A DNA stretch of 33,276 bases from Saprospiraceae bacterium (GTDB lineage Bacteria > Bacteroidota > Bacteroidia > Chitinophagales > Saprospiraceae), in contig JALHMA010000019.1 of the NCBI GenBank assembly GCA_022844265.1, positions 1-33,276 of the forward strand, read 5' to 3'. Numbering within the stretch: the first letter of the stretch is position 1; the number at the start of each line of letters is the position of its first letter. This document shows, in pieces, positions 10,125-31,135 of this stretch. The translations under genes were made by a program, and so were the position numbers. The notes below the pieces were generated by a model. That model worked only from the letters and a program-made list of their open reading frames with translations. It made no database searches and had not been told where the DNA came from.

Positions 10125-10206
10125 AAAGTAAAAGGCAAAGGGCAAAAAGCAAAAATAGCTACTCGGCAAATTTTGCCTTTTGCTTTTTGCCCTTTGCTCT
10201 TTTACT
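10125..10206. repeat. Inverted repeat of AAAGGC-type heptamers after the pepP stop
   Basis: AAGTAAAAGGCAAAGGGCAAAAAGCAAAAA (10125-) versus the rc of TTTTGCTTTTTGCCCTTTGCTCTTTTACTT (10177-10206). Confidence 0.85.
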
Positions 10207-10211
10207 TATAA

Positions 10212-10348: not shown

Positions 10349-10473
10349 TCAAAAGGTTTATAAGGTTTATAAGGTTGATGAGGTTCATAAGGGCCGCTCA
10401 AAATGAGAGAAATCACTTCATAGAGTGGCTCTTATAAACCTCATCAACCTTATAAACCTTATAAACCCTTTGA
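10349..10473. repeat. 51-bp-arm inverted repeat composed of AAGGTTTAT-type 9-mers
   Basis: 10349-10399 versus 10423-10473, 47/51 matching by eye, 23-nt loop. Confidence 0.9.
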
Positions 10474-10486
10474 GACAGCCACCATT

Positions 10487-13400
10487 TTATTTACTGCGCT
10501 GAACCAGCACTTTGGCCGTGCCGCGCAACGATTGATCAATAAACATTTGAACAAAATATATGCCTTCAGCCTGTGCTGCGACATTCCACTCCACCTGGTG
10601 GGGACCGGCCGGCATGGAGCGATCGAGTACCGTTGCGATGCGGCGACCGCTCAGGTCGGTTACTTCCATTCGGATATCGGCTGACTGGTTTAGTTCAAAG
10701 GAAAACACAGCCTGTTGTGGCGCAGGATTAGGGAATACCCCGATGTACTGCGAACGAATCAAAGGATCATTGACGCTGACAATTAAGACGGAATCAATCA
10801 GAATGGCGATGTCGCGGACGGCAATGCCATTGCCTATTTTCCCAATCAGGTTGGTGCTGCCGGATGCCAGATCCATCGTATAAAAATTATCGCTGGAAGA
10901 GGCGCCGGGATTGGCGGACAGGTAAGCGTCGTTCATGCCCGTTTCAAAATTGTAGTAAATATCAAAATCCACGCTGGGGTCCGCCGGATTAAGGACAATA
11001 CCTGTGTTGCCGAGTGTATTCAGCACCCCGTTGTTGGGTGGAATCTGGGTGGTCAACACATTCAGGGAATCGTCGTAATTGTACAAGGTCGTCGTCGTGG
11101 CCCCGTTAAAACTATTGGTATAGGCTACCGCGCCCACAGCCGGATTCATCCCGGCATTGATATCTCCGGGAGCAAAAACCAGGTTCATATCCGTGGCGGC
11201 AATCGCGCCGGTTACGGGATGCATGCGGTAATTGGCGTTGTTGGCGCCTACCACCCGAATGCGGTCGACCGTTGGGTTAAAATCAAAACCGACATCGCCG
11301 GCGCCCAAAGCAAGTGTAACAGAAGCGGCCCCAATGGCGGTAGCCACACCTGAAATGCGGTCAATGTTGTACAGGCGCGCCTCTCCGTTGGTGGCATTGT
11401 AACCAAGTCCGTACAATTCACCCGTAGCAGGGCGAAAATCGGTACCCACCAGGTTCTGGCCTGCTGCCACCCCTGTAACTGTAACCAGATTACGCACCAC
11501 TTCCGGCAAATCGGAGTCGAAGGAAATCAGGCTGTTGTTTGCCGTGAGGGCATACACCAATTGTCCGGTCACTTCTTCCGGCACGGCGCGTTCGATCAGA
11601 ACGGCGATGTCATTGACAGCAATGCCCAGGCCAATTTGGCCGATCAGCGTTGCGCTGCCGTTGGTCAGGTTGAGGCTGTAAAAATTATCGGACAGCAAAG
11701 CGCCTGTGTTGGAGGATAAAAAGGCGAGGTTGCTGCTGCTTTCCGCATCAAAAAAGATGTCCATATCGGCGGAAGGGTCCAGTAAGTTCAGGGTTAGACC
11801 GCTGTTGCCGATAGTATTCAGCACCCCGTTGTTGGGTGGAATTTGTGTAGTCAGTACGTTCAGCGAGTCGTCGTAGTTAAACAAAACGGTAGAAGTAGCG
11901 CCGATATAACTGTTGGTGTAAGCCAAGGCGCCAACGGAAGGATTGGCTGCGGCATTTACGTCACCTGCGGCAAAAGCCAGGTCGGCGTCCGTGGCGGCGA
12001 TGCCACCTGTAATGGGGTTGAGGCGGTAGTTGGCGTTGTTGCTGCCTGTTACGCGAATGCGGTCGACGGTCGGATTGAAATCAAAGCCGATTTTGCCCAT
12101 ACCTGCTTCCAGGGTGATGGCAGCGGCGCCAATGGCGGTAGCAACACCCGTTGATGCTGCAATCGTGTACAAACGCGCTTCGCCGTTGGTGTTGTTGTAG
12201 CCCAGGGCTAATAACTCACCCGTAGCCGGGCGGAAATCCATACCAACCAACACCTGTCCCATAGCGACTCCGCTTACAGTAACCAGATTACGCACCACTT
12301 CCGGCAAATCGGAGTCAAAGGAAATCAGGCTGTTGTTTGCCGTGAGGGCATACACCAATTGTCCGGTCACTTCTTCCGGCACGGCGCGTTCGATCAGAAC
12401 GGCGATGTCATTGACAGCAATGCCCAAACCAATTTGGCCGATCAGCGTTGCGCTGCCGTTCGTCAGGTTGAGGCTGTAAAAATTATCGGACAGCAACGCG
12501 CCTGTGTTGGAGGATAAAAAGGCGAGGTTGCTGCTGCTTTCCGCATCAAAAAAGATGTCCATATCGGCGGAAGGGTCCAGTAAGTTCAGGGTTAGACCGC
12601 TGTTGCCGATAGTATTCAGCACCCCGTTGTTGGGTGGAATTTGTGTAGTCAGTACGTTCAGCGAGTCGTCGTAGTTAAACAAAACGGTAGAAGTAGCGCC
12701 GATATAACTGTTGGTGTAAGCCAAGGCGCCAACGGAAGGATTGGCTGCGGCATTTACGTCACCTGCGGCAAAAGCCAGGTCGGCGTCCGTGGCGGCGATG
12801 CCACCTGTAATGGGGTTGAGGCGGTAGTTGGCGTTGTTGCTGCCTGTTACGCGAATGCGGTCGACGGTCGGATTGAAATCAAAGCCGATTTTGCCCATAC
12901 CTGCTTCCAGGGTGATGGCAGCGGCGCCAATGGCGGTAGCAACACCCGTTGATGCTGCAATCGTGTACAAACGCGCTTCGCCGTTGGTGTTGTTGTAGCC
13001 CAGGGCTAATAACTCACCCGTGGCCGGGCGGAAATCCATACCAACCAACACCTGTCCCATGGCGACCCCGCTTACGGCGACGAGGTTGCGCACGACGCCC
13101 GGCAAATCGGAGTCGAAGGAAATCAGGCTGTTGTTTGCCGTCAGGGCGTACACCAGTTGTCCGGTCACTTCTTCCGGCACGGCGCGTTCGATCAGAACGG
13201 CGATGTCGTCTACTTCAAGACCCAAACCGATCGGCCCTACCAGCGTGGCCAGGCCTGTTGTGAGATTGACCGTGTACAGTTGGTCTGATAAACTGACGTT
13301 GTCATTGGCTACCAGGTAGGCTACATTCTGGCCGGTGACCGGATTGATAGCAATGTCTATATCCGATGTCTCGTTATTCGGGTTCAAAAGGATGCCCACG

Positions 13401-14059
13401 GCGCCCACAGTGTTCAGCGTACCGTTATTGGGTGGAATCTGCGTGGTGAGTACCCCGAGCGAATCATCAAAATTGAACAAGGTAGTACTGGTAGCACCGA
13501 TATAACTATTCGTGTAAGCCACCGCGCCTATGGAAGGATTTTGGGCTGCATTCACATCCGTTATTGCAAATGCGAGGTTGCCATCTGTGGCTACCAACGC
13601 ACCGGTGACCGGGTGCAGGCGATAATTGACATTGTTACTGCCGGTCACGCGGATGCGGTCGACCGTAGGGTTAAAATCGAAACCGACCTTCACCATATCT
13701 GAAGCCAGCGTGATGGGGCCGGCGCCAATGGCCGTCGCGACGGCTGTGGTGGTATTCAGGGTGTACAATCGCGCTTCGCCGGTAGTTTGGCGATAACCCA
13801 AAATGTATAGCTCTCCGGTAACAGGTCTGCTATCCATCCCTGCAATAATGTAGTTGGCCTCAATGCCGGAGATAGCAGTACTCGACAATACCAGTGCCGG
13901 GGTCAGGGCATTGAAAGAAATCAGGTTATTGCCGGAAAGTGCAAAAATAGTTTGTGCATGGAGGGAGGAAAAAGCGCCGATCCATAGCATCAGCACGAAT
14001 GACAATACTGTTCGGTGCAGGCGGAAATGGGAAAAAAAGGTAGAAAGGTTGTTGAGCAT
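10487..14059 (-). CDS. Secreted protein with four tandem DUF4394 domains and C-terminal T9SS type A sorting domain
   Basis: Four repeats of ~265 aa (NxLISFxxxxP..GFDFNPTVDRIRVTGSNNxNYRLxPxTG..PPNNGxLNTxG); C-terminus VFPNPAPQQAVFSFEL..GIYFVQMFIDQSLRGTAKVLVQ. Confidence 0.92.
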   Translation of the reverse strand: MLNNLSTFFSHFRLHRTVLSFVLMLWIGAFSSLHAQTIFALSGNNLISFNALTPALVLSSTAISGIEANYIIAGMDSRPVTGELYILGYRQTTGEARLYTLNTTTAVATAIGAGPITLASDMVKVGFDFNPTVDRIRVTGSNNVNYRLHPVTGALVATDGNLAFAITDVNAAQNPSIGAVAYTNSYIGATSTTLFNFDDSLGVLTTQIPPNNGTLNTVGAVGILLNPNNETSDIDIAINPVTGQNVAYLVANDNVSLSDQLYTVNLTTGLATLVGPIGLGLEVDDIAVLIERAVPEEVTGQLVYALTANNSLISFDSDLPGVVRNLVAVSGVAMGQVLVGMDFRPATGELLALGYNNTNGEARLYTIAASTGVATAIGAAAITLEAGMGKIGFDFNPTVDRIRVTGSNNANYRLNPITGGIAATDADLAFAAGDVNAAANPSVGALAYTNSYIGATSTVLFNYDDSLNVLTTQIPPNNGVLNTIGNSGLTLNLLDPSADMDIFFDAESSSNLAFLSSNTGALLSDNFYSLNLTNGSATLIGQIGLGIAVNDIAVLIERAVPEEVTGQLVYALTANNSLISFDSDLPEVVRNLVTVSGVAMGQVLVGMDFRPATGELLALGYNNTNGEARLYTIAASTGVATAIGAAAITLEAGMGKIGFDFNPTVDRIRVTGSNNANYRLNPITGGIAATDADLAFAAGDVNAAANPSVGALAYTNSYIGATSTVLFNYDDSLNVLTTQIPPNNGVLNTIGNSGLTLNLLDPSADMDIFFDAESSSNLAFLSSNTGALLSDNFYSLNLTNGSATLIGQIGLGIAVNDIAVLIERAVPEEVTGQLVYALTANNSLISFDSDLPEVVRNLVTVTGVAAGQNLVGTDFRPATGELYGLGYNATNGEARLYNIDRISGVATAIGAASVTLALGAGDVGFDFNPTVDRIRVVGANNANYRMHPVTGAIAATDMNLVFAPGDINAGMNPAVGAVAYTNSFNGATTTTLYNYDDSLNVLTTQIPPNNGVLNTLGNTGIVLNPADPSVDFDIYYNFETGMNDAYLSANPGASSSDNFYTMDLASGSTNLIGKIGNGIAVRDIAILIDSVLIVSVNDPLIRSQYIGVFPNPAPQQAVFSFELNQSADIRMEVTDLSGRRIATVLDRSMPAGPHQVEWNVAAQAEGIYFVQMFIDQSLRGTAKVLVQRSK
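11480..13076 (-). repeat. 798-bp tandem near-identical intragenic duplication (DUF4394 domains 2 and 3)
   Basis: Plus-strand ORFs 11843..12154 and 12641..12952 encode identical 103-aa translations, offset 798 nt; flanking DNA differs by only a few bases. Confidence 0.93.
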
Positions 14060-14175
14060 CGTAGTTTAGTTGAAATGTTATGGGAAATAGTTGGAATAGG
14101 ATAACCCTGCTATTTCCCTACCTACGAGTGACGACTCAACTTTGGTTTTTGGTTTTTTGGGTTTTGTTTAAAAAA

Positions 14176-14448
14176 GGAACACGGATTGAAAGGATGGGAC
14201 ACGGATTTTTGCGCTTACGCGCACGTAGGAATAATAGCAACGCGGATCACGCGGATGAGGCGGATTTACGCGGATTTTTCCGCCTTAGAGTTGACACGGA
14301 TCAAATATGATCACTTTTAAAAAAACAGGTCAACTCTAACGCGGGAAAATCCGCGTAAATCCGCCTCATCCGCATGATCCGCGTTGCTATTATTCCTACG
14401 TGCGCGTAAGCGCAAAAATCCGTGTCCAATCCTTTCAATCCGTGTTCC
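14176..14448. repeat. Large inverted repeat, 120-nt arms (116/120 matching), 33-nt loop
   Basis: 14176-14295 versus 14329-14448; arms built of degenerate (A/G)CGGATT words. Confidence 0.95.
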
Positions 14449-14479: not shown

Positions 14480-15751
14480 TTACCGCACAATCAACTTCTC
14501 CCGTTCCGGCCCCGTAGAGATCATCGTAAAAGGAACCCCGAGGTACGCTTCCAGTTCCTCCAAAAAAACGCGGGCCTGTGCAGGCAGCGCCTCATACGTC
14601 AGCGCCTCATCCAGAGAACAATTCCAGCCGGCGAATTGCCGCAATACCGGCGCCACAGGCGTATGGCACAAGTCGAAAGGAAGTCGATCCGTTTCAATAT
14701 TGTTGTAGCGGTACTGCGTGGCGGCGGCGATTTCTGAAAAAATGTTCAGCACATCAATTTTGGTCATGCACAATTCTGTGACGCCATTGAGCAGAATAGT
14801 GTAGCGGAGTTGTGGTAAGTCGATCCATCCGCAGCGCCGCGGCCGGCCGGTGGTAGAACCGAATTCCATGCCTTCCTGGCGCAGTTTTTCACCGGTTTCA
14901 TTGTCCTCCTCTGTTGGAAACGGGCCGCCGCCCACACGGGTACAGTAGGCCTTGGTAATCCCGATCACGCGCCCGATGCGCTGCGGCGCTACACCCAGGC
15001 CTGTGCAGACGCCGGCTGTAATGGTATTGGAAGAGGTTACAAAAGGATAAGTGCCGAAATCAATATCGAGCATACTGCCTTGTGCGCCTTCAGCCAGTAT
15101 TTTTTTTCCGGCCTTCAGGGCGTCGTTGATATAGTATTCACAATCGACAAAGGGCAGCGCCAGCAGATCGTCCAGGCTGGCAAACCAGGCTTTTTCTTCC
15201 GCTTCCAGGTCGAAGGATACTTCCGGGTAAATTTTCAGCAACTCTAAATGTTTGGCTTTCAGGGCCTCATATTGATCGCGGAACGCAGGCGATTCCACAT
15301 CGCCGATACGAAGCCCGTTTCGGCCGGTTTTGTCCATATAGGTAGGGCCGATGCCTTTGAGTGTCGAACCGATTTTTTCTTTCCCCTTGTGCGCCTCGCT
15401 GGCTGCATCGAGCCAGCGATGGGTGGGTAAAATGAGGTGCGCTTTGCGGGAAACCAGCAGGCGGTCATGGAATTTAACGTCCGTTTGTTCGAGCGAACGC
15501 AGCTCGCGCTGGAAAACAAGTGGATCGAGTACGACGCCGTTGCCGATCAGGTTGATGAGGCCCGCACGAAAGATACCGGATGGAATGGTATGCAAAACAT
15601 ATTTATTTCCTCCGAACTTGAGGGTATGACCGGCATTCGGGCCGCCCTGAAAACGGGCCACTATGTCGTAGTCATTTGCCAGATAGTCCACAATTTTACC
15701 TTTCCCCTCATCGCCCCATTGCAGCCCCAGAATCACATCAATTTGTTGCAT
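14480..15751 (-). CDS. purA: Adenylosuccinate synthase
   Basis: IDVILGLQWGDEGKGKIVDYLA, GGPNAGHTLKF, GIGPTYMDKTGRNGLRIGD, EGAQGSMLDIDFGTYPFVTSSNT. Confidence 0.98.
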   Translation of the reverse strand: MQQIDVILGLQWGDEGKGKIVDYLANDYDIVARFQGGPNAGHTLKFGGNKYVLHTIPSGIFRAGLINLIGNGVVLDPLVFQRELRSLEQTDVKFHDRLLVSRKAHLILPTHRWLDAASEAHKGKEKIGSTLKGIGPTYMDKTGRNGLRIGDVESPAFRDQYEALKAKHLELLKIYPEVSFDLEAEEKAWFASLDDLLALPFVDCEYYINDALKAGKKILAEGAQGSMLDIDFGTYPFVTSSNTITAGVCTGLGVAPQRIGRVIGITKAYCTRVGGGPFPTEEDNETGEKLRQEGMEFGSTTGRPRRCGWIDLPQLRYTILLNGVTELCMTKIDVLNIFSEIAAATQYRYNNIETDRLPFDLCHTPVAPVLRQFAGWNCSLDEALTYEALPAQARVFLEELEAYLGVPFTMISTGPEREKLIVR

Positions 15752-15900: not shown

Positions 15901-16805
15901 TGATTAGGTTGGCTTCGCTTTTTTTGCTGTTTCAATTATACATTGTGCAGGCACATGGGCAGGCAGCCGTGAATCCCTTCGACCTCATTCACCGGCTGCC
16001 TAAACAGGCACTGACTGGCTCCGATGCAGCGCAAACGGAATCGGCAGTCAATCCCTTTAACGTAGTGGCGCACCGTACGCCCGGAGCCAGCCAGATACTT
16101 GCCGAAAATAAAACGGAAGCATTTCGCCCCTTTTCCATTCTTCCGCGCGGCGGCGGACTCTCCAACGGTTTGTTGTTCGGCTTGCTGGTGCTCATGTTTG
16201 CGATACTGACTTTGTCGGTGGCAACCAATCGCAGTGCAGTAGGAAAGGCCTGGCGCGGTTTTTTAAATGATAATGCCCTGACACAGGCACAGCGCGAAGC
16301 GACCGGCCTGGTTGGAAGTACGCCTTATTACCTGTTGTACCTCAATTTTTTGCTCAATATGGGGCTTTTTATCTTTCTGGTGACGCGTTTTTTCACCCAG
16401 GATAAATTTAATAACACCCCGTTTTTACTCATCTGCATTGTGGGCGGCGCTGCCATGTTTTTATCCAAACACGTGATTCTGGCGATCGTACGGTACCTTT
16501 TTCAGGTAGAAACAGAAGTGACCCGCTACAATTTTTTAGTGATTATCTTCAACTGCGTGCTGGGGCTGTTTCTGGTTCCCTTCAATTTTATGATTGCACT
16601 GGGAGCGGAGAAATTCTACCAGGGCTTGCTGGTGTTCTGGGTATTGGGGCTGGTGAGCATATTTTACATTTATCGTTCGCTGCGGGCTTTGAATATTGGC
16701 AGTAAATTTTTGGTGGGTGACCAATTTCACTTTTTATTATACCTTTGCACTGTCGAAGCAGCACCCGTCCTCCTCCTTACAAAATTAGCCATGATGCAAT
16801 CCTGA
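15901..16805 (+). CDS. DUF4271-type integral membrane protein
   Basis: Signal peptide MIRLASLFLLFQLYIVQAHGQA then multiple TM helices; adjacent to hemD. Start at 15901 preferred over 15756. Confidence 0.75.
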
Positions 16806-22006: not shown

Positions 22007-22077
22007 GTAGAGTACACCGCTTCGAGTTAATCGTTTTCATATTAAGTGCTAGATCATTATTGCTTCCCGCACTTTTT

Positions 22078-22124
22078 CCAATAAAAAAGGAGAACGCTGA
22101 AAATGCGTTCTCCTTTTTTATTGG
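22078..22124. terminator. Bidirectional intrinsic terminator, perfect 20-bp stem
   Basis: CCAATAAAAAAGGAGAACGC-tgaaaat-GCGTTCTCCTTTTTTATTGG. Confidence 0.88.
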
Positions 22125-22149
22125 ATGTGATTTAAAATGGTCTTTATGA

Positions 22150-22281: not shown

Positions 22282-22314
22282 AAAGTTGTCAACTTTTAAA
22301 AAGTTGACAACTTT
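22282..22314. promoter_or_regulatory. Perfect 16-1-16 palindrome, possible operator or hairpin
   Basis: AAAGTTGTCAACTTTT-A-AAAAGTTGACAACTTT. Confidence 0.65.
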
Positions 22315-22422: not shown

Positions 22423-22457
22423 AAAGGCGTAGCGTACATGGTGTACGCTACGCCTTT
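22423..22457 (-). terminator. Intrinsic terminator downstream of gldN
   Basis: AAAGGCGTAGCGTACA-cca-TGTACGCTACGCCTTT then TTTATT on the minus strand; perfect 16-bp stem. Confidence 0.88.
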
Positions 22458-25716: not shown

Positions 25717-25860
25717 GCAATCAATCATTAACTTATCCGAAGAAAATTTTGCTTGAAAAAATATATACCTCCACAATTGTCTGCTGTTGGCAGATTTTAG
25801 GAGTTGTATGTCAGGCGAACGCCATTTACCAAACTTTTATGAGGAGGGAGAATGGCATTT

Positions 25861-25948
25861 TTCGTGTTTGGTGTTTCGTGTTTGGTGTTTCGGTTGCGTA
25901 TGAACAGTCGCTTATCCGAAACACCAAACACGAAAAACGAAAAACGCA
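25861..25948. repeat. Inverted repeat of TCGTGTT/TGGTGTT heptamers adjacent to the gldK stop
   Basis: TTCGTGTTTGGTGTTTCGG (25875-25893) versus CCGAAACACCAAACACGAA (25916-25934), perfect 19 bp; an extra repeat unit lies on each side. Confidence 0.9.
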
Positions 25949-25950
25949 AA

Positions 25951-28465: not shown

Positions 28466-28760
28466 TGAGTATCTGAAGATTTGAGGATTCGAGTATTTGA
28501 AAGATTCGAGTATCTGCCTTGTAACTTTTGGTGATAGTAGGAGAAGGTAGTTGAATGCTCGTAACCTATTCAGTACTGTGTTATCTAAATTTTTGAATAT
28601 TCGAGGATGCGAGTATTTGAGTATAAATGATTCGTTATCGGTCAGATACTCGAATACTCAAATCTTCGGATACTCAAAAAATTAGGCGACTATGTATTCT
28701 GTAAGAGACCTAAAGCTGCCAGTCAGATACTCGAATCTCCAAATACTCGAATACTCAATA
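28466..28760. repeat. Multi-copy 8-mer arrays (GAGTATTT/GAGTATTC) in alternating orientation between the DUF255 gene and porP
   Basis: Arrays at 28466-28516, 28590-28625, 28642-28677 and 28723-28760; the first two show GAGTAT on +, the last two on -. Confidence 0.88.
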
Positions 28761-31002: not shown

Positions 31003-31135
31003 GTTGGGAGTGGGATATTGGGATATTATGATATTAGGATATTATGGTATTGGGATATTGGATAATTTATTGGTAATCGACCTATTGGGTGATAATATCT
31101 CAATATCATAATATCCCAATATCTCACCCAACTCA
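31003..31135. repeat. Inverted repeat of GGATATTATGATATT-type 8-mers after the HtrA-like stop
   Basis: GATATTGGGATATTATGATATT 31014-31035 versus its exact reverse complement at 31102-31123; flanked by GTTGGG arms. Confidence 0.92.

Follow-up and report, generated by a model that had tools for sequence, protein, structure and literature searches.

The region behind purA in the Saprospiraceae genome studied here carries a 273-bp layered palindrome which, judged by comparison of its copies, is one member of a dispersed repeat family restricted to a single clade of the genus. The element is on balance probably a bacterial small interspersed palindrome similar to REP and ERIC sequences, but longer and modular, with arms that are homogenised by template switching and with a putative role as the purA terminator. 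All positions refer to the window, i.e. the whole stretch of DNA analyzed (33,276 nucleotides, contig JALHMA010000019.1).

Position and structure of the palindrome behind purA

The original prediction of a near-perfect inverted repeat was recovered exactly, with arms of 120 nt each at positions 14176-14295 and 14329-14448 that are 97% complementary and separated by a loop of 33 nt. Folding of the strand yielded a z-score of -28.7 compared to 100 dinucleotide shuffles, and no hairpin above threshold appeared when the full window was shuffled five times by mononucleotides. No Rfam family exceeded its gathering score in the window. Gene coordinates place the element (14176..14448) as predicted, 31 nt from the stop codon of purA (adenylosuccinate synthetase, 14480..15751, minus strand) and before the next gene, which encodes a DUF4394 protein (10487-14059, minus strand). 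On the strand of purA, the stem is directly followed by TTTTTT (14170..14175, minus strand).

Comparison of copies resolved each arm into four layers. The left arm begins with an outer module A (GGAACACGGATTGAAAGGATGGGACACGGATTTT, 14176..14209, plus strand), which also occurs alone as short hairpins, followed by a linker or core (TGCGCTTACGCGCACGTAGGAATAATAGCA, 14210..14239, plus strand), a block of four CGGATT words with a period of 9-10 nt (14240..14276, plus strand), and the inner stem (TTTCCGCCTTAGAGTTGAC, 14277..14295, plus strand). The loop (14296..14328, plus strand) is non-palindromic and conserved between copies, with the consensus ACGGATCAAATA.TGTTCACTTTTAGAAAAAAGCAG. The right arm mirrors the left one on the minus strand, with the inner stem at 14329..14347, the word block at 14348..14384, the linker or core at 14385..14414, and module A on the purA side at 14415..14448. 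The core GCGCTTACGCGCACGTAGGAATAATAGC is present exactly once per arm, as had been noted, and has no other mismatch-free occurrence anywhere in the genome; diverged copies of the element were found at dozens of places. The exact core had been taken to argue for duplication-inversion or a mobile element. It gives no particular support to one recent duplication-inversion at this site, as a slightly variant core, CGCGCTTCGCGCTCGTAGGAATAATGG, is mirrored in many copies.

The window contains eight more hairpins of unrelated sequence (10126-10207, 10349-10473, 22077-22125, 22282-22314, 22423-22457, 25859-25950, 28481-28758, and 31010-31127), several of which are built from heptamer or 8-9-mer words.

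The element belongs to a dispersed, clade-restricted family

With the whole element as BLAST query, the genome yielded 113 matches, which fall at about 50 places; several of them are full-length with 75-87% identity. The outer module, searched as ACACGGATTNNANRGATNRGACACGGATTT, occurs 129 times (62 + 67), while the reversed-pattern control gave no match. Within the genus, the nearest sister genome (G030) has 202 occurrences of the module, G009 has 52, G061 has 31, and two others have 14-18; it is absent or rare in the remaining genomes of the genus. Among 395 further Bacteroidota genomes in the sample, only three gave matches, one or two each and all of them weak. The closest named relatives of purA place the organism in Saprospiraceae. 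Nearly all of 30 aligned copies retain the non-palindromic loop, and its presence in the full copies shows that they descend from one dispersed sequence. The proposal that a mobile or dispersed element rather than simple slippage is involved is thus borne out by the dispersed copies, the outer modules, and the common loop. Viral carriage was also considered and rejected: 11 matches to the module pattern in viral contigs, none of them within a hairpin, are ascribed to chance. Among open-access papers, searches by sequence words and by topic found no description of these repeats in Saprospiraceae.

Short and long forms reveal a layered anatomy

The structure of the element is nested and layered. 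Full copies follow the order module A, linker (TTTTCCCTCGTAGAGTNAATGG or CGCGCTTCGCGCTCGTAGGAATAATGG), CGGAT words, TTTTCCCGCTTTAGAGTTGAC, and loop, and then the mirror image. Alongside these composites, copies consisting of module A only form hairpins of 73-91 bp with an inner part of 15-33 nt. The tip of such A-only hairpins, for example CCCTCGTAGAGTTAAT, recurs in mirrored form as the linker of long forms; likewise, the linker TTTTCCCTCGTAGAGTTAATGG seen in other copies resembles this tip. A deletion in a long form at a common GGG could also generate the A-only tip.

Nesting also crosses family borders. Two A hairpins (L354 and L355) carry a hairpin of the unrelated CACATAG-word family at their tip, and further cross-family nests lie at L232:14697-15001 and 16364-16648. 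Under a strict criterion, requiring two word families in both arms, 0 of 180 hairpins qualified; the nests at the three loci are real examples, but such cases are either rare or missed by this criterion. The linker GTAGAGT/ACTCTAC recurs across word families in 16 of 107 hairpins of the genome (e.g. L220:8204-8312, L234:19797-19924, and L228:2469-2576).

The site behind purA, compared in relatives as had been proposed, carries an A-only hairpin of 97 bp in the sister genome G030 and the 273-bp form in the genome studied here, with TTTTTT coming directly behind the hairpin in both. More distant congeners have either other hairpins with ACGGTGG words (L203, L205, and L207) or none at this position. 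As the next relatives lack a hairpin there, the change between short and long form is not polarised at this site. In L203, L205, and L207, purA itself ends in ACGGTAG, stop codon included, and the words ACGGTGG/ACGGTAG start directly thereafter, as if the terminal sequence of purA had served as seed or as junction for the hairpin word.

At orthologous sites in a second region (G000:C6), we observed one family kept with differing words mirrored in both arms, a swap of families (GAATGAGG words versus GGTTGATAAGG words), and a nested 305-bp form facing a simple 114-bp form. The comparison with the sister species covers a small sample of about seven sites.

The DUF4394 gene beyond the element encodes a protein of 1190 aa, which matches DUF4394 several times and carries a type IX secretion tail, and lies between purA and an aminopeptidase P gene. 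In G030, purA directly adjoins the aminopeptidase P gene in convergent orientation, indicating that the DUF4394 gene was either gained in the genome studied here or lost in G030.

Long hairpins are frequent at gene ends

We found 180 self-symmetric long hairpins in 800 kb of sampled contigs, corresponding to about 22 per 100 kb; by extrapolation, the 6.05-Mb genome would contain more than 1000 of them, belonging to many sequence families. The density varies across the genus from 30 per 100 kb in G034 to about 7 in G006, and samples of 19-20 kb per genome from G002, G010, G018, G031, and G035 contained no long hairpin. The words are mostly heptamers, with an autocorrelation of 0.41 at 7 nt and 0.39 at 14 nt.

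Hairpins occupy 49 of 95 convergent gene pairs, 81 of 357 tandem pairs, and 12 of 99 divergent pairs (convergent versus divergent, p = 2e-9). They lie a median of 9 nt behind the stop codon, and 56 of the 81 hairpins between tandem genes are closer to the stop than to the next start (p = 0.0008). The leading arm (outer 36 nt of 322 hairpin arms in this genome) is G-rich and poor in C (11%). Stop codons in all three frames occur in a fraction of 0.33 of leading arms compared to 0.15 of shuffled arms; a heptamer word that contains a stop codon provides a stop in every frame.

Regarding transcription termination, a GC-rich stem immediately followed by TTTTTT on the transcribed strand, the arrangement of an intrinsic terminator, was found for the purA copy only. 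T-runs of at least four are present within 20 nt downstream of 12 of the 19 copies of the purA-element family in tandem context. Across all families, the 12 nt behind the hairpins in transcript direction showed no T excess (3.3 T versus 4.5 A), and termination is therefore not a general property of these hairpins. A terminator scan with a loop limit of 8 nt, which excludes the 33-nt loop, did not report the full hairpin. At purA, both species retain the TTTTTT tail despite remodelling of the stem, which makes a role as terminator or 3' end protector plausible; the element probably acts as the terminator of purA.

The arms change in concert, probably at the DNA level

A hairpin of this length had been expected to be either very recent or maintained, and our data speak for maintenance. 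Mean arm identity is 0.834 within a copy and 0.666 between copies. In 12 aligned copies, 96.5% of the cells pair, and two-sided changes affect 38 of 109 pairs and 107 cells, compared to means of 19.9 and 36.6 in shuffled data. The observed values were not reached in any of 500 shuffles, although the relatedness of the aligned copies means that this is not a strict probability; register-shifted controls, which retain the relatedness, gave 5-11 cells. Many of the pair changes are direct exchanges of G-C and C-G or of A-U and U-A, with no G-U step.

If pairing were selected at the level of the transcript, G-U mispairs should exceed A-C mispairs on the transcript strand. Taking gene orientation from simple ORF calls, we counted 144 G-U and 150 A-C mispairs in the 81 tandem-gene hairpins (p = 0.77), 66 and 56 in hairpins of convergent pairs, and 20 and 18 in the purA-element family alone. 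This parity indicates that complementarity of the arms is preserved in the DNA itself. Together, covariation and mispair parity favor DNA copying from arm to arm, i.e. template switching, over RNA selection, and we infer that the arms are maintained in this way. Template switching has been documented as able to create and to maintain hairpins (PMC8794818). SbcD, a candidate explanation for the tolerance of palindromes, gave a strong family match in 6 of 41 congeners only and weak matches nearly everywhere else.

Alternative explanations

The dispersed copies with defined ends and a common loop, and their confinement to one clade of the genus, would also suit a MITE, i.e. a non-autonomous transposon whose terminal inverted repeats are very long and which is mobilised in trans by a transposase cutting at its outer ends. 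We regard this as improbable. Border direct repeats indicative of target-site duplication are missing (longest direct word 4.2 nt versus 4.4 nt in mismatched-pair controls); instead, the flanks match in the inverted sense (7.0 nt), and the borders are fuzzy because mirroring extends into the flanks. A cut-and-paste element would not be expected to show layered short and long forms with concerted arms, and a search limited to Y1 transposases identified no parent insertion sequence. Those Y1 genes, three of which are present in the genome, raise a different possibility, namely that the element is a REP or REPIN mobilised by TnpA-REP (RAYT) proteins. Like REP, REPIN, and BIME sequences, the element is a dispersed extragenic palindrome of high copy number near gene ends. 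Y1 genes were found in all 17 genus genomes with element matches, and none of the seven Y1-free genomes has a match (Fisher p = 0.009), but the Y1-free genomes are mostly smaller, such that genome size and phylogeny act as confounders of this association; moreover, 13 genomes have Y1 genes and lack the element. Most REPs of E. coli measure 10-30 nt (PMC12306157), several times less than the element, and REPs are tagged by GTAG or GTGG beside the stem (PMC6006769). The element, at 273 bp, is not a short hairpin with such a tag beside the stem foot; its GTAG lies inside the arms only. Unlike in a REP/RAYT pair, both full-length Y1 genes (loci C3 and C123) adjoin a different palindrome, TTGCGCCCTTTCAGGGCT, and not CGGATT hairpins. 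We regard mobilisation by RAYT proteins as improbable. The RAYT-type genes flanked by TTGCGCCCTTTCAGGGCT palindromes (L290:2832-2937 and L292:2218-2380) probably have a REP family of their own.

Selection on the transcript would offer another reason for complementary arms, if the hairpins were RNA-level terminators or 3' end protectors. Their placement directly behind stop codons, the avoidance of divergent promoters, the TTTTTT tail conserved in the sister genome, and the T-runs in tandem-context copies of the family are in line with this idea. The equal frequency of G-U and A-C mispairs, where a G-U excess would be expected, and the lack of a T-tail in other families make it improbable as the general cause, although an RNA-level role may still apply to purA on top of copying at the DNA level. 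Finally, false palindromes can arise during assembly, the outcome named in the original prediction as its refutation, or during whole-genome amplification, and the assembly is indeed fragmented (561 contigs, with several element copies at contig ends). This origin is very unlikely: a related hairpin occupies the corresponding site in the independently assembled sister genome, the arms carry true mismatches, the conserved loop consists of unique sequence, and long hairpins are present also in congeners whose assemblies comprise 7 and 9 contigs.

Proposed mechanism

For the favored reading, i.e. a dispersed modular palindrome homogenised by template switching, we propose that one arm would template the other at the replication fork, rewriting both arms together. 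Layers could be gained or lost at the hairpin tip by similar template switching, or by deletion across the hairpin. With less certainty, the GC-rich stem together with TTTTTT might end or protect the purA transcript, and gene ends might represent a tolerated or favored slot in which one hairpin can be replaced by another. Template switching alone does not explain the conserved 33-nt loop. More tentatively, the hairpins might constitute a self-homogenising system, in which more than 1000 layered palindromes at gene ends have their arms co-rewritten, exchange layers and whole families at a given site between sister species, and act as a replaceable 3'-end module with stops in all frames in the leading arm.

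Relation to known palindromic repeats

ERIC/IRU and YPAL sequences of enterobacteria are intergenic, palindromic, and present in multiple copies, with lengths of about 127 and 168 bp, respectively; they are often co-transcribed with neighbouring genes and affect mRNA stability (PMC2229807). The element resembles ERIC/IRU as an imperfect, multi-copy intergenic palindrome whose forms include the range of 100-200 bp; the likeness to ERIC and YPAL is one of description, and no sequence relation was seen. In contrast to them, the units described here extend from 75 to 440 bp, occur in layered short and long forms, and possess a conserved 33-nt loop, CGGATT words, and strongly concerted arms.

Short tandem heptamer repeats (STRR) of cyanobacteria consist of such words in intergenic DNA. 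Other hairpin families of the genome share the 7-nt period, whereas the words of the purA family have a period of 9-10 nt and are always arranged as hairpins.

With respect to the concerted arms, quasipalindrome correction renders imperfect inverted-repeat arms identical by copying one from the other (PMC8794818, PMC7202029, PMC8604942). This process is known mainly from mutation hotspots or RNA genes, whereas here it would act on the extrapolated set of intergenic hairpins. Mitochondria of Nematomorpha have been described to harbour numerous long inverted repeats per genome, of up to 284 bp, with concerted arms for which template switching was proposed (PMC6649704); those palindromes lie in the coding sequence of animal mitochondria, while the ones reported here lie behind bacterial genes and form dispersed families. 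Among bacterial intergenic palindromes, the repeat stands out by its layering, density, and concerted arms.

Long palindromes are considered unstable in bacteria. In the genome studied here, hairpins are tolerated at about every second convergent gene pair, and the concerted evolution of their arms carries no G-U signature of selection acting on RNA. This also calls for caution, since strong covariation in an alignment does not by itself prove a functional RNA. Overall, the lineage offers a natural setting in which to test template switching as a process that builds and maintains hairpins, and to address the question of whether interchangeable structures can serve the ends of bacterial genes.
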